This document shows, piece after piece, positions 218-25,538 of a stretch of DNA of 41,180 nucleotides. Positions within the stretch are counted from its first letter, which is position 1; every line of letters starts with the position of its first letter. A program made the position numbers and the translations under genes. The stretch comes from an uncultured Lachnospiraceae bacterium (GTDB lineage Bacteria > Bacillota > Clostridia > Lachnospirales > Lachnospiraceae): the NCBI GenBank assembly GCA_949502235.1, contig CATBDC010000039.1, positions 1 through 41,180 of the forward strand. Reading direction: 5' to 3'. Under the pieces are notes generated by a model, which searched no databases, was not told the DNA's origin, and saw only the letters and a list, made by a program, of their open reading frames with translations.

Positions 218-1305
218 ATGTGTATGACAAATGTATACCAGAAGCCGGAGAGCGCCGGGGGTGTTTTTGGAGATGTTAAGACCCGGGACGAGGTGCTTGC
301 GCAGATTCAGGGTAATCCGGCGGTCCATGAGGAGTTTTTAAAGCTGCGCCAGAGTTTCAAGAACGGTTTACCCAGTTCTGCATGGGTGTGCGGGGTGTAC
401 AGATGACCTATGATCCGTTTTTTATAAAGATATTTGACGCGGAGATTCACCCGAAGAGACTGTCAAAATTTCTCTCGAAGATACTGGGACGCCGCCTTAA
501 AATAAAACGCATGCTGCCAAATGAACATAAACGGATTACGGACAGGGGATCTCTCCTGATTATGGATATACTGGTAGAGTTTGAAACCGGAGAACTGGCG
601 GATGTGGAAATCCAGAAGGTAGGATACCTGTTCCCGGGACAGAGAGCTTCCTGCTATTCCTCCGATATGGTCATGCGCCAGTACGAAAGGATAAGGAGCG
701 CAAAAGGAGAGGATTTTTCATATAAGGATCTGAAGAAGGTGTACACGATTGTGATTATGGAGAACAGCAGTCAGGAGCTGAAGGCAGTACCGGAATATTA
801 CATTCACAGAGGAAGATGCGAATTCGATTCAGGGCTTAAACTCAATCTTTTACAGGAATTTTATTTTATATCGCTTGATGTTTTTCTCGATATCATGGAT
901 AATAGAGGGAAAGAAGCAAAGATAAGCGAACTGGAAGCATGGCTTTATTTTATCGGCTCGGACAAGGTGGAACATATACAGAAGGTGATAACAAGCTATC
1001 CTTGGTTCGCAGAAATGTATGAGGAGATCGGCGAGTTCCGCCGTCATCCCGAGGAGGCGATAAGGATGTTTTCGGATGCATTGAAGATATTAGACGAGAA
1101 CACTGTGCGGTATATGATTGACGAGATGAAGCAGGAAATAGAGGAAAAGGATGGGACGATAGACGGGCTGAAGGGGATGGTAGGTGAACTGGAAGGAACG
1201 GTAGGTGAGCTAGAAGGGACGGTAAAGGAGAAAGATGGAAAAATAGAGGAATTAGAGAAGATCATAAAAGAACTGCAAAAAGAATTGCAGAAAAAGGTTC
1301 ATTAG
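218..1305 (+). pseudogene. Rpn/PD-(D/E)XK nuclease family 'transposase', frameshifted
   Basis: The protein belongs to the PD-(D/E)XK nuclease family transposase group (PDDEXK_2/Rpn-like), DNA endonucleases linked to recombination and mobile DNA. The nuclease core is visible as MDILVEFETGELADVEIQ (a D...ExQ catalytic signature), followed by conserved YLFPGQRA, SYKDLKKVYTIVIME and ELEAWLYFIGSDK blocks. The C terminus is a Lys/Glu-rich coiled coil. The reading frame is broken: an opening frame from ATG 218 (good GAGGAG ribosome-binding site) runs to about 360 (...FLKLRQSFK). The rest of the protein, beginning ERFTQFCMGVRGV, lies in another frame from 361. Restoring one G in TTCAAGAACGG (TTCAAGGAACGG) rejoins the two parts, so a single-base deletion is the simplest explanation. 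The downstream part alone could start at ATG 382 but would lack the N-terminal helix. A sequencing error is possible. The repeat unit at 1331-1456 lies directly downstream. Confidence 0.8.
1179..1241 (+). repeat. 21-bp tandem repeats encoding coiled-coil heptads
   Basis: Two near-identical 21-bp units (1179-1199 and 1200-1220, beginning GGTAGGTGA) and a diverged third unit encode repeated VGELEGT heptads in the nuclease pseudogene's C-terminal coiled coil. The unit length equals exactly one heptad, so gain or loss of units keeps frame and changes only coil length. Confidence 0.75.
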
Positions 1306-1330: not shown

Positions 1331-1456
1331 TGACGGAATCGTCCCTCGAACGATACTCTAACCGTACAGGTGGAAAATTTCAGGGAACGGTGTGACTCGT
1401 AGAAATCACATCGTCCCCTCTTTTTTGAACTATCTATTTCCCGATAGTCCCTTTTT
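1331..1456 (+). repeat. Dispersed repeat unit: CGTCCCTCGAA tag plus GGGAACGG hairpin
   Basis: This stretch matches 3141-3256 closely: the tag CGTCCCTCGAACGATA, then AACCGTAC.GGTGGAAAA, then a hairpin (arms 1383-1395 and 1406-1418, about 12 of 13 pairs) and the trailer ACTATCTATTTCCCGAT.GTCCC. The two hairpins differ by pair-preserving or G.T changes. Here the 130-nt structured core found elsewhere upstream of the tag is absent. The unit fills the gap between the nuclease pseudogene and the 3' end of the M24 peptidase gene. Confidence 0.8.
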
Positions 1457-2670: not shown

Positions 2671-2706
2671 AACCGTATAGCTGGAAAATTTGCTGTCTAT
2701 ACGGTT
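2671..2706. repeat. Small inverted repeat at edge of composite repeat region
   Basis: Arms AACCGTATAG (2671-2680) and CTATACGGTT (2697-2706) are perfect complements around a 16-nt loop containing CTGGAAAATTTG. The same AACCGTA...GGTGGAAAA wording follows the CCGTCCCTCGAA tag at 1360 and 3163, so this is the minus-strand counterpart of that trailer. Confidence 0.6.
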
Positions 2707-2718
2707 GGAGTACACTTT

Positions 2719-2898
2719 TCGAGGGACGGCAGTTCGGGGCAGTTCTTCCCCACACAGACAGGGCAACGCTCTAGTGAGCTAACGACTAACTACGACTAAG
2801 GCATTCAGGAAAGCCTTCTTGCCTAAGTCTCCGTAAGCCGTGGATCTCACCTCCGCTAAGAACGCCCCATAATGTCTGCTTAGGGGAAGAACTGCCCC
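2719..2898 (-). repeat. Structured dispersed repeat, copy 1 (inverted)
   Basis: Read on the minus strand, a core beginning TAAGCAGACATTATGGGGCG and ending GTCTGTGT is enclosed by arms GGGGCAGTTCTTCCCC / GGGGAAGAACTGCCCC (plus-strand 2883-2898 and 2736-2751) and is followed by the tag CCGTCCCTCGAA (complement at 2719-2730). The core matches copies 2 and 3, but the closing arms are unrelated in sequence and still perfectly complementary. Internal stems also covary (GTGAG/CTCAC here, GTGAA/TTCAC in the others). A 72-codon open frame crossing this region is not a gene. Confidence 0.85.
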
Positions 2899-2962
2899 AA
2901 ACTGCCTGTGCACTGGAAAAATCTCCATCTGTGCTGTTGGAACATCATATTTTCGATGCACA

Positions 2963-3152
2963 GGAAGTTTTAAGATGCCCTTCCTATAAGCAGACATCAG
3001 GAGGCGTTTTTAACGAAGGTGAAATCCACTGCTTACAAAAGACTTAGGAGTGAAGGCTCTCCTGAACTCCTTAGCCTTTGTTAGCGGTTAGTTCACCGGA
3101 GTGTTGCCCAGTCTGCGTTAGGAAGGGCATCTTAAAACTTCCGTCCCTCGAA
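2963..3152 (+). repeat. Structured dispersed repeat, copy 2
   Basis: A 24-bp perfect inverted repeat (2963-2986 with 3119-3142, starting GGAAGTTTTAAGATGCCC) encloses the shared core TAAGCAGACAT...GTCTGCGT. The tag CCGTCCCTCGAA follows at 3141-3152. Copies 1 and 2 lie head to head, so TTCGAGGGACGG at 2719 and CCGTCCCTCGAA at 3141 bound the pair. An additional short inverted repeat (CCTGTGCA 2905-2912, TGCACAGG 2957-2964) lies between the two copies. No coding potential is evident. Confidence 0.88.
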
Positions 3153-3256
3153 CGATATTTTAACTGTACGGTGGAAAAATTTCAGGGGACGGTGTGACTC
3201 GTATGAATCACATTGTCCCCTGTTTTGGACTATCTATTTCCCGATTGTCCCTTTTC
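3153..3256 (+). repeat. Repeat trailer with GGGGACGG hairpin
   Basis: Continuation of the unit described at 1331-1456. The hairpin GGGGACGGTGTGA (3185-3197) / TCACATTGTCCCC (3208-3220) pairs over 13 positions with two G.T pairs. It lies just beyond the putP stop codon and could help end putP transcription, but no clear T-run follows on the minus strand. Confidence 0.7.
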
Positions 3257-7892: not shown

Positions 7893-7936
7893 ATTTTCAT
7901 CAAAAATTCCACTTAAAAATTCCGCCTGTACACAGG

Positions 7937-7957
7937 CTGTTCGGGGCGGTTCTTCCC
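7937..7957. repeat. Solitary arm of the structured repeat
   Basis: The segment around TTCGGGGCGGTTCTTCCCC repeats one closing arm of repeat copy 1 (2733-2751) with a single change. No core follows, so this is probably the scar of a deleted copy. Confidence 0.6.
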
Positions 7958-7970
7958 CTTTTACAAGAAC

Positions 7971-8006: not shown

Positions 8007-8146
8007 ATTCTACTAATCATCCACATCTTCATCAAGCCATACGCTTATATCAGAAGTATCCCACCTATCTAGAGGACGGAAATCCGCTCCGCCTTCACAC
8101 CGGCAAAATATCCCTCTTTGCTGTTGGAAGGCTATTTCGATGCACA

Positions 8147-8337
8147 GGAAGTTTGCAGATGTCCTTACTATAAGCAGACATTAGGGGGCGTTCTTAACGG
8201 AGGTGAAATCCACCGCTTACGAAGACTTAGGAGTGAAGGTATTCCTGAACTCCTTAGTCGCAGTTAGCGGTTAGTTCACCGGAGTGTTGCCCCGTCTGTG
8301 TTAGGAAGGACATCTGCAAACTTCCGTCCCTCGAACA
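8147..8337 (+). repeat. Structured dispersed repeat, copy 3
   Basis: The arms GGAAGTTTGCAGATGTCC... (8147-8170) and their complement (8302-8325) pair over 24 positions with one mismatch and enclose the same core as copies 1 and 2. Against copy 2, three positions in the left arm change and the right arm changes to match each of them. The tag CCGTCCCTCGAA follows at 8324-8335, after which similarity stops. The element lies just past the rpoC stop codon. Confidence 0.88.
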
Positions 8338-8364
8338 TCACTCCGCCCCACAGTCAAAGAATAT

Positions 8365-11300
8365 TTACACTAATACCTCGTCTTCTTCTAATTCTCTTTC
8401 GTAGTCTTCTGCTTCATCGATATCCAGTGCTTCTTCCAGGTCTTCCGGCAGCTCATCGTCTAAATCATCGCCTAAATCATCATCTAAATCATCGTCAAAC
8501 TCTACAAGCTTTGCATCCTCTTCCCCGCCATCTTCTTCCTCCAGATAAACATCATCCTCCAGGTCCATCTCTCCTTCAAGCTGGACATCCCGGTATTTGC
8601 GCATACCCGTACCTGCCGGGATATGCTTTCCGATGATGACATTTTCCTTGAGGCCTACTAACGGGTCAATCTTGCCCTTAATCGCGGCTTCTGTCAGCAC
8701 CTTTGTTGTCTCCTGGAAGGAGGCTGCCGACAGGAAGGAATTGGTGGCAAGTGATGCCTTTGTTATACCAAGCATGATCTGCTCGCCGCTTGCCGGCTCT
8801 CTTCCGTCTTTTATAAGCTCTTTATTCTTATCCTCAAATTCCAGAATATCTACATTGGTTCCCGGAAGGAATTCGGAATCTCCTGCTTCCTCGATACGGA
8901 CCTTCTTAAGCATCTGACGCACGATAACCTCAATATGCTTATCGTTAATATCAACACCCTGGAGCCTGTATACGCGCTGTACCTCCTGGAGCATATAATC
9001 CTGCACGGCCCTAAGCCCCTTGATTTTCAGGATGTCATGAGGATTAACACTTCCTTCTGTCAGCTCATCACCGGCCTCAAGCTCTGCGCCGTCCTGAATC
9101 TTGATGCGTGAGCCGTAAGGAATCAGATATGCCTTTGATTCCCCTGTCTCATGGTTGGTTACGATAACCTCCCGCTTTTTCTTTGTATCATTAATGTTTG
9201 CTGTTCCGGCAAACTCGGTAATAATCGCAAGTCCCTTCGGCTTTCTCGCCTCAAAAAGCTCCTCGACACGGGGAAGACCCTGTGTGATATCATCACCGGC
9301 AACACCGCCTGTATGGAAGGTACGCATGGTAAGCTGTGTACCCGGCTCGCCGATTGACTGAGCCGCAATAATACCTACAGCCTCGCCCACCTGTACCGGC
9401 TCGCCCGTGGCCATGTTGGCGCCATAGCATTTCGCGCAGATACCGTTGTGGGAACGGCAGGTAAGAATCGTACGGATCTTGATCCCCGTAAGCGGCCCGC
9501 CCTTCTCATTGACGCCCTTCTTCATAATCAGCTCCGCGCGCTTCGGCGTTACCATATGGTTCGCCTTAACAAGCACATTGCCGTCCTTATCAACAATATC
9601 CTCACACAGATAGCGTCCTGTAATACGTTCCTTTAAGCTCTCTATCTCCTCGCGGTTATCCATAAACGCACGCACGTACATTCCAGGAATCTCTTCTCCC
9701 GGCGCCGCGCAGTCCACCTCGTGAATAATAAGCTCCTGGGAAACGTCAACCAGACGCCTTGTCAGGTAACCGGAATCGGCGGTACGAAGCGCCGTGTCAG
9801 AAAGTCCTTTACGCGCTCCGTGGGCGGACATAAAGTATTCCAGTACGTCTAAGCCCTCACGGAAATTAGACTTGATAGGAAGCTCTATGGTACGTCCCGT
9901 TGTATCTGCCATAAGTCCGCGCATGCCTGCAAGCTGCTTAATCTGCTTATCGGAACCGCGGGCTCCGGAATCGGCCATCATGAAAATATTGTTGTATTTG
10001 TCAAGACCGCTAAGCAGCGCCTCGGTAAGAGCATCATCCGTTGCCTTCCAGGTCTCTACAACCTCCTTGTAACGCTCCTCCTCAGTAATAAGGCCGCGCT
10101 TAAAGTTCTTCGTAATCTTATCTACAGTATCCTGTGCCTGCTTTATCATCTCCGGCTTCTGGGGCGGCACGGTCATATCCGAAATAGATACGGTCATGGC
10201 CGCTCTCGTGGAATACTTATAGCCAATGGATTTTACCGCGTCAAGCACCTCTGCCGTAGCAGTGGAGCCATGTGTATTAATAACCTTTTCAAGAATCTGC
10301 TTTAACTGTTTCTTGCCTACATGGAAATCCACCTCCGGAAGAAGCTCATTTCCGGGAACCTCACGGTCCACAAAGCCTAAATCCTGCGGAATGATCTCAT
10401 TAAAGAGAAGGCGTCCCAGTGTAGACTCTATCGTACCGGTCTTCACCTTTCCGTCCGCCGTCTTCTTAGACACACGTACCTTAATGCGTGAATGTAAGGT
10501 AAGAGCCTCATTCTCATAAGCAAGAATTGCTTCATTTACATTTTTAAATATCTTTCCTTCCCCGAGAGCCCCCGGCCTCTCCTGAGTCAGATAGTAAATA
10601 CCAAGCACCATGTCCTGTGAAGGCACGGCTACCGGCCCGCCGTCTGACGGCTTCAGAAGATTGTTCGGCGACAGAAGAAGGAAACGGCACTCTGCCTGCG
10701 CCTCTACAGAAAGGGGAAGATGAACCGCCATCTGATCTCCGTCAAAATCCGCATTATATGCCGTACATACAAGGGGATGCAGCTTAATCGCCTTACCCTC
10801 TACTAAGATGGGCTCAAATGCCTGGATACCCAGCCTGTGAAGAGTAGGGGCACGGTTTAACATAACCGGATGCTCTTTTATAACCTCCTCAAGCACATCC
10901 CATACCTCCGGCTGGAGCCTCTCCACCATCTTCTTTGCATTTTTTATATTATGGGCAGAACCGTTTAACACAAGCTCCTTCATAACAAAAGGCTTGAAAA
11001 GCTCAATAGCCATCTCCTTTGGAAGGCCGCACTGGTAGATCTTAAGCTCCGGTCCTACGACAATAACGGAACGTCCAGAATAATCCACACGCTTTCCTAA
11101 AAGATTCTGGCGGAAACGTCCGGACTTGCCCTTAAGCATATCGGACAGGGACTTAAGCGCCCTGTTGCCCGGCCCTGTTACCGGACGGCCCCGGCGGCCG
11201 TTATCAATAAGGGCATCCACCGCTTCCTGGAGCATCCGCTTTTCATTTCTTACAATAATGTCCGGCGCGCCTAATTCAAGAAGGCGTTTCAGACGGTTGT

Positions 11301-12117
11301 TTCTATTAATAATCCTTCGGTACAGATCATTTAAGTCAGACGTTGCGAAACGTCCGCCGTCCAGCTGTACCATCGGGCGCAGATCTGGCGGGATAACCGG
11401 AATATTCGTCATAATCATCCACTCCGGCTTATTTCCGGATTCACGGAAGGCCTCAATAACCTCCAGACGCTTTACGATTCTGGCACGCTTCTGGCCCGTA
11501 GCGTTTTTAAGTCCGGACTGGAGCTCTTCATAGTCCTTATCCAGATCAATAGCCTCTAAAAGCTCCTGGATCGCCTCAGCTCCCATGCCTACGCGGAATC
11601 CGCTGCCCCAGGCCTCAAGCGCCTCCTGATACTCCTGCTCGGAGAGCACCTGCTTATACTGCAGATCTGTCTGGCCGCCGTCCAGCACAATGTAGGACGC
11701 AAAATACAGTACCTTCTCCAGGGTTCTCGGAGACAAATCAAGAATCAGGCCCATACGGCTTGGAATCCCTTTAAAATACCAGATATGCGACACTGGTGCG
11801 GCCAAGGCAATGTGCCCCATACGTTCACGCCGCACGCTGGACTTTGTAACCTCTACGCCGCAGCGGTCACATACCACGCCTTTATAGCGAATCTTCTTAT
11901 ATTTACCGCAGTGACACTCCCAGTCCTTGCTGGGCCCGAATATCCTTTCGCAGAAAAGGCCGTCCTTTTCAGGCTTTAAGGTCCTGTAGTTAATCGTCTC
12001 CGGCTTGGTTACCTCGCCTCTTGACCATTCCAGAATCTTTTCGGGTGATGCCAAACCGATTTTGATTGCATCAAACGTCATTGGCTGATATGATTGTTCC
12101 TTATTATTTTCTGGCAT
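8365..12117 (-). CDS. rpoC: RNA polymerase subunit beta'
   Basis: Catalytic subunit of RNA polymerase. The 1250-residue protein begins with the zinc-ribbon (C68, C70, C83, C86), continues through the clamp and the conserved [13 protein letters not shown] / [20 protein letters not shown] segments, and holds the Mg2+ triad in [10 protein letters not shown] (D457, D459, D461). The trigger-loop region and the second zinc site near [13 protein letters not shown] follow. The last ~60 residues are extremely acidic (repeated [16 protein letters not shown] type), and the DNA there carries short tandem AAATCATC repeats. The start ATG 12117 has AGGAAGGGG upstream and lies 14 nt after rpoB. Transcription comes from the rpoB promoter and probably ends at 7971-8006. 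Confidence 0.98.
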
Positions 12118-25372: not shown

Positions 25373-25538
25373 ACTGCATATTCCTTTTTGCCTGCCGTCA
25401 CTTTTCCCATGGAGGGACTTATGAATACAGCTCTTACCGCAGACAGCAGAATTTATTATTATTATATTCGCCATGCCCGTAAAGATGATATCCAGGCTGA
25501 ATCATTTTCTTACAGCCTGCGCAGTAAATGCAAACACT

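Follow-up and report, generated by a model that had tools for sequence, protein, structure and literature searches.

The element we describe is present in three copies in the window (the whole 41,180-nt stretch of DNA that was analysed, from an uncultured Lachnospiraceae bacterium). It is real and apparently undescribed, and it exceeds its nearest relatives in size and degree of structure. The reading we propose, to which we give about an even chance, is that of a new REPIN-like family of non-autonomous mobile palindromic elements with a structure-encoded core. The moving unit would mostly be a head-to-head pair of ~180-nt hairpins, with their 3' GTCC bases turned outward, around a short non-coding spacer, and the single hairpins would probably be half-units or decayed pairs. 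A transposase acting in trans would cut the ends of the unit, and the core, with its AUCC/UAG and GGA/GCA-like loops and its two U.U mismatches, would be recognised in its folded single-stranded form, as DNA or RNA. The arm, in most cases 22-30 nt long, would space the core from the basal internal loop (A/C-CA opposite GTCC). Only its length and pairing would matter, template switching keeping it nearly perfect while its sequence drifts, which would lead to the unrelated arms seen between copies.

Copies in the window and distribution of the element

The first-pass annotation had announced three copies with a common core. All three are present, copy 1 on the minus strand and copies 2 and 3 on the plus strand. 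The span it gave, 2719-3152, comprises copies 1 and 2, which form one head-to-head pair lying between an M24 peptidase gene and a sodium:solute symporter gene; copy 3 lies elsewhere, at about 8112-8357. The features are the following.

1340..1393, solitary outer end of the element, without core; 89% to the copy 2 end; terminal-repeat match at 1353-1376
2693..3174, head-to-head pair of copies 1 and 2; MITE-like unit of ~482 bp with inverted repeats; ends set by terminal-repeat alignment
2728..2751, copy 1 arm, pairing with 2883-2906; 96% complementary over 24 nt
2751..2882, minus strand, copy 1 core (nhmmer)
2883..2906, copy 1 partner arm, pairing with 2728-2751
2963..2986, copy 2 5' arm, pairing with 3119-3142; 100% complementary over 24 nt; preceded by ACA at 2960-2962
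2987..3119, plus strand, copy 2 core (nhmmer)
3119..3142, copy 2 3' arm, followed by GTCC at 3143-3146
7925..7959, remnant of a copy-1-type 5' arm, near copy 3; 85.7% over 35 nt
8112..8357, plus strand, copy 3, single unit of ~246 bp, directly downstream of the rpoC ORF (8365-12117, minus strand)
8147..8170, copy 3 5' arm, pairing with 8302-8325; 96% complementary over 24 nt
8171..8302, plus strand, copy 3 core (nhmmer)

As had been claimed, the arms are unlike between copies and yet pair with their own partners (GGGGCAGTTCTTCCCC with GGGGAAGAACTGCCCC in copy 1, GGAAGTTTTAAGATGCCC in copy 2, GGAAGTTTGCAGATGTCC in copy 3), exactly in copy 2 and with less than full complementarity in copies 1 and 3. 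The three arm differences between copies 2 and 3 are each matched in the partner arm, and the core changes from GTGAA/TTCAC to GTGAG/CTCAC and from TTAGGAG/CTCCTTAG to TTAGGCA/TGCCTTAG are real.

Other repeats accompany the element. A second hairpin repeat (GGGGACGGTGTGACTCGTATGAATCACATTGTCCCC-like) adjoins two element ends, at 1384-1425 and 3184-3227, which places some units within or beside another repeat. Distinct from these is a dispersed repeat of ~133 nt, found at L064:1362-1494 (G000:C17) with dozens of matches in G000, G002 and G003; a 38-nt piece of it occurs in the window at 25497-25534. The solitary core-less end at 1340-1393 comes after a PDDEXK_2 (Rpn-like) ORF (382-1305, plus strand). 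The sole gathering-level Rfam match in the window is an ordinary ribosomal protein L10 leader (RF00557; 19499-19662, minus strand). For the window's element, the pair alone and eight diverged loci, no family was matched in Rfam 15 at gathering or relaxed thresholds.

The window's own genome contains 98 stretches matching copy 2 by blastn, many of them partial or overlapping, and the same search matched 5 of 61 relatives. With the covariance model R1, built from 36 diverse cores that were chosen from 71 first-pass copies and aligned, the element was found in at least 24 of 299 genomes sampled within the family Lachnospiraceae, a lower bound since the survey scored at most 11 candidates per genome. 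The same model matched 3 of 391 genomes of a class-wide sample that also includes Lachnospiraceae, all three in that bacterial family. In the genus of G131, four species have 38, 48, 29 and 55 scored copies and a fifth, G329, has none; the carriers among these congeners are G131, G328, G330 and G331. An exact core pattern occurs in at least 80 records of the GTDB contigs, whose titles name Lachnospiraceae, Dorea, Roseburia, Eubacterium, Acetatifactor, Clostridia and Clostridiales; viral contigs gave no match to the exact 20-letter core pattern, and phage and plasmid collections no blastn match to copy 2.

The copies are mostly intergenic: a called ORF overlaps 5 of 191, and 186 are free of such overlap. 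Their GTCC side faces the 3' end of a gene in 103 cases and the 5' end in 66. So many intergenic copies with a conserved core structure could be expected of a host chromosomal site (nucleoid, gyrase, replication or recombination) kept for the benefit of the cell. This explanation seems to us very improbable, since 275 of the 299 sampled genomes and one G131 congener are without a detected element and since ends and amplification are specific to lineages.

Structure of the core and pairing of the arms

The hairpin measures ~180 nt overall, and the stability of its fold against shuffled sequences corresponds to z values of -9.28 as RNA (0 of 200 shuffles), -8.48 as RNA of the other strand and -8.80 as DNA. 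From the base it consists of an internal loop, with A/C-CA on the 5' side against GTCC on the 3' side, the arm, the conserved core, and an apical stem that is longer in some genera. The core, ~133 nt long, is made of six helices interrupted by the AUCC/UAG and GGA/GCA-like internal loops and by two U.U mismatches in the contexts CUUAG/CUUAG and CUUAC/GUUAG.

The first-pass annotation had called for a covariance model, and further copies do covary, far above the controls. Among the 36 aligned cores, two-sided changes affect 29 of 37 core pairs against 16.0 in shuffles, and the covariation amounts to 190 cells against 49.6 in shuffles (0 of 500 reach it) and at most 28 in slid controls. The core structure is kept over two dozen sampled genera; the ends and arms are not.

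The arms were surveyed in the 147 of 284 copies whose base could be placed, the base being chosen by the letters GTC. These copies fall into 61 arm families with less than 60% identity to each other, in which 1404 of 1482 arm positions are Watson-Crick; 15 of the 61 families are perfect throughout, and the arm length is 22-30 nt in 41. In the same copies, picked by GTC, the fourth base letter is C in 91%, and the other side of the base ends in A (78%) or C (22%) and is preceded by C in 77%. L051 and L063, which share a gene neighbourhood, have similar cores and diverged arms, each arm remaining complementary to its partner.

Fourteen of 18 comparisons between orthologous copies were used, three being left out as lying within one locus and one for identity below 80% on both sides; three of the 14 involve the same three loci. 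The arm class, which includes the outer flank pairs, contains 445 unchanged pairs, 15 with two-sided changes that keep the pairing (11 of them from two copies, L127 and L318), 43 with one-sided changes and 7 with two-sided changes that break it; the corresponding core figures are 558, 20, 22 and 4. The arms thus change and mostly stay paired, one-sided changes being the commoner kind between close orthologues.

The statement in the first-pass annotation that compensatory change means selection for base pairing has to be divided between arms and core. Template switching is described as homogenising the arms of palindromes without any selection, in the parts available of three sources (PMC7202029, PMC3820800, PMC8604942), and it would be the cause of the near-perfect arms. 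Because it gives the same pattern, arm pairing alone is no proof of selection, and the rule fails for the arms and as a general rule. It is the core that speaks for selection: template switching would tend to erase mismatches and internal loops, yet those of the core persist across genera, from which we infer that the core is under selection.

Rearrangements of the hairpins were also observed. As regards the question whether the arms copy their target, the flanks of L064 were found in five congeners and are too diverged to be compared; at this site G005 has a core-less 25-bp hairpin, and the other congeners have unlike hairpins. At L322 (about 2520-2650), the end of the neighbouring gene recurs as an inverted copy on the flanks of a core-less element derivative. 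Together, the L322 derivative and the G005 hairpin suggest fold-back events around elements. At L052:1060-1480, a tandem array of ~42-nt units resembling the 5' arm (AATCAGCAGACCGGGGCGCAC) runs into an element copy.

Strong core covariation and irregular loops kept over genera are also what would be expected of a structured RNA, a small RNA or an element of mRNA 3' ends, read from TAAGCAGAC to GTCTGCG, spread by recombination or transposition and kept for its function as RNA. We hold this to be rather unlikely. Part of the argument concerns the strand-specific pairs. A first count in the core gave 64 G.U against 8 A.C, of which 35 of the 64 came from one conserved column, under a choice of pairs that itself tolerates G.U. 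When the count was limited to pairs predicted on both strands, G.U still exceeded A.C, by 17-20 to 6-7 in A1 and by 26-33 to 18 in A2, the ranges corresponding to the 100% and 90% cut-offs; this correction was made on the top 64 of the 88 A2 rows and on 88 of the 114 A3 rows, and A3 left only 4 common pairs. The excess may point to RNA, in a suggestive and not decisive manner, and as a proof of RNA it is weak once the bias of structure choice is removed. In the arms, on the other hand, the mismatches of the 191 copies are about equally distributed (157 G.T, 193 A.C), with no excess of G.T. Some orthologous copies are identical between different flanks (L192/L249, L161/L206, L032/L033), as an RNA function would favour, but others differ inside the element (L099/L202/L220, L047/L048). 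Furthermore, the copies have no preferred orientation with respect to the gene on their 5' side (89 with, 80 against), and a pair would be read both ways. A promoter scan of the window pair returned three sites where 0.7 were expected. All three lie on the minus strand, the plus strand having no site; one of them, the weak site at 2973-2944, could read into copy 1.

The mirrored pair, its ends and signs of mobility

When two copies lie less than 600 nt apart, they are head to head with GTCC outward in 38 of 39 pairs, the remaining one being direct. Twelve of these 39 pairs had been fetched as pairs, and 26 of 27 are head to head without them; 15 belong to the genome of the window and cannot be counted as independent. 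A hand count in a survey of four genomes gave 20 of 22 pairs head to head and two direct, among the matches listed. The genes flanking the pairs occur in all four orientations (11, 11, 9 and 7). No ORF of 90 aa or more was found inside any of the 38 pairs that are flanked by two called genes, and no ORF resembling a transposase was seen, by eye, in the wider-spaced pairs.

In the window's genus the element has terminal inverted repeats and AT-rich target duplications of 8-9 bp, the two marks of a MITE, the duplications having been assessed on 21 of 33 units. Single units are 246-253 bp long, eight pairs that look intact are 478-482 bp long, and the remaining spans fall between 300 and 629 bp. 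In the genome, 35 instances of the terminal pattern were counted and none of its reversed version, used as control. Within this genus and on those 21 units, the two ends agree at 7 or 8 of 8 positions in 12 cases, against 5.05 expected from mismatched end pairings (p = 0.0017), several of the duplications being AT-rich near-matches; for 9-mers the comparison gave p = 0.0006. Exact 8-mers were found at L004, L011, L014 and L032. Of the other units, five were dropped because their ends could not be assigned and seven (L001, L010, L012, L015, L017, L021, L033) were excluded because they are irregular, end within a neighbour or represent duplicate orthologues; L001 is the locus that holds the window's own pair. 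In G004 and G001 the gene neighbours of the window pair are kept and the element is absent, with 204 and 108 nt between the matches against 659 in the window; the three remaining congeners, where the flanks are separated from each other, are hence uninformative. In G331, which belongs to another genus, the same pair layout occurs with other ends (AAGTATACTTTTTTG-like) and other arms, and it is in the window's genus and in G331 that the unit ends are defined.

Among the findings that the first-pass annotation had named as speaking against it are a match to a known Rfam family and a match to an IS end. The Rfam side is clear, while the element does have transposon-like ends in the window's genus. 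For this reason the second half of its title, "structured RNA or hairpin transposon", fits better than the first. Its dispersed structured element without Rfam family is borne out, with real core covariation and signs of mobility.

A transposase was sought around the ends and among the carriers. In 14 loci around terminal-repeat matches, including two spans between inverted terminal repeats, inspection by eye revealed neither a transposase-like ORF nor a parent transposon with the same ends. Two candidate proteins were rejected as not co-occurring with the element: Y1_Tnp is matched in 14 of 24 carriers and 161 of 275 other genomes, and PDDEXK_2 in 17 of 24 and 178 of 275.

These results bear on whether the element is a REPIN in the strict sense, which a Y1 (HUH) REP-associated transposase would mobilise as single-stranded DNA. 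It shares with REPINs the head-to-head doublets, the intergenic position and the mismatched hairpins, and in G131 there is a slight replication-strand excess (23 of 35 placed copies, 20 of 29 without the pairs), which may follow gene direction. Nevertheless, Y1_Tnp is unmatched in 10 of the 24 carriers, including G086, a genome 99% complete that has at least 8 copies, and target duplications, which are not expected of Y1 transposition, are found in the window's genus. We therefore regard a REPIN proper as highly doubtful.

Known systems and significance of the family

The nearest systems are the REPINs and the CGTC-tagged REPs, the element being MITE-like in the window's genus. CGTC-tagged REPs, as presented in the available part of PMC3733652, are intergenic hairpins with CGTC at one base and a mostly CCA tail at the other; the stem is 8-9 bp long and the loop 4-5 nt. 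Most of their doublets have the tag turned outward, a transposase dedicated to them is not known, and that part contains no report from Firmicutes. As far as this account goes, our element resembles them in its intergenic hairpins, its inverted doublets with the tag outward (38 of 39 here) and a dedicated transposase not found. It differs in stem and loop size, with arms of 22-30 nt in 41 of 61 families and a ~133-nt core in place of the loop, and in host phylum. The strand order of tag and tail also seems reversed relative to dRS3.

REPINs with RAYT are described, in the portion of PMC3116915 at hand, as inverted doublets that form the replicative unit, in which compensatory hairpin changes are common. 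The element shares with them, on that description, the mirrored doublet as unit and the compensatory changes, and differs by its GTCC base, its ~180-nt unit and the lack of Y1 association, REPINs having a GTAG tag and a palindrome of 20-40 bp. Though the workings appear similar, we file it under neither system, because its size and its stem are not theirs. The pneumococcal BOX, RUP and SPRITE elements are, according to the accessible sections of PMC3049150, short intergenic structured repeats, unevenly spread between related species and probably parasitic, and BOX elements can be transcribed. Like these and like MITEs, as far as those sections describe them, the element is short, intergenic, strongly structured and patchy across related species; here, by contrast, the core structure is kept over many genera while ends and arms change, and the mirrored pair is usual. 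In the open-licence literature searched (main texts, without supplements), no earlier description was found.

Could the family represent a class of mobile elements set by shape, in which the mirrored hairpin pair moves, the ~133-nt core is recognised and the stems can be exchanged without constraint, leaving related copies with no ends or arms in common? We put forward this possibility tentatively and consider it unlikely.

In conclusion, our observations emphasize a family that is hard to see by sequence search, since what is conserved is a large core structure and not the ends or arms; for REPs, REPINs and MITEs, a short sequence is the usual definition. One and the same molecule would carry two causes of "compensatory" change, the homogenisation of the arms and the selection on an irregular core, which together constitute a warning for the discovery of RNAs by covariation. 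Finally, the comparison of carrier and non-carrier species of one genus offers a way to seek the machinery that spreads CGTC-like hairpin doublets.
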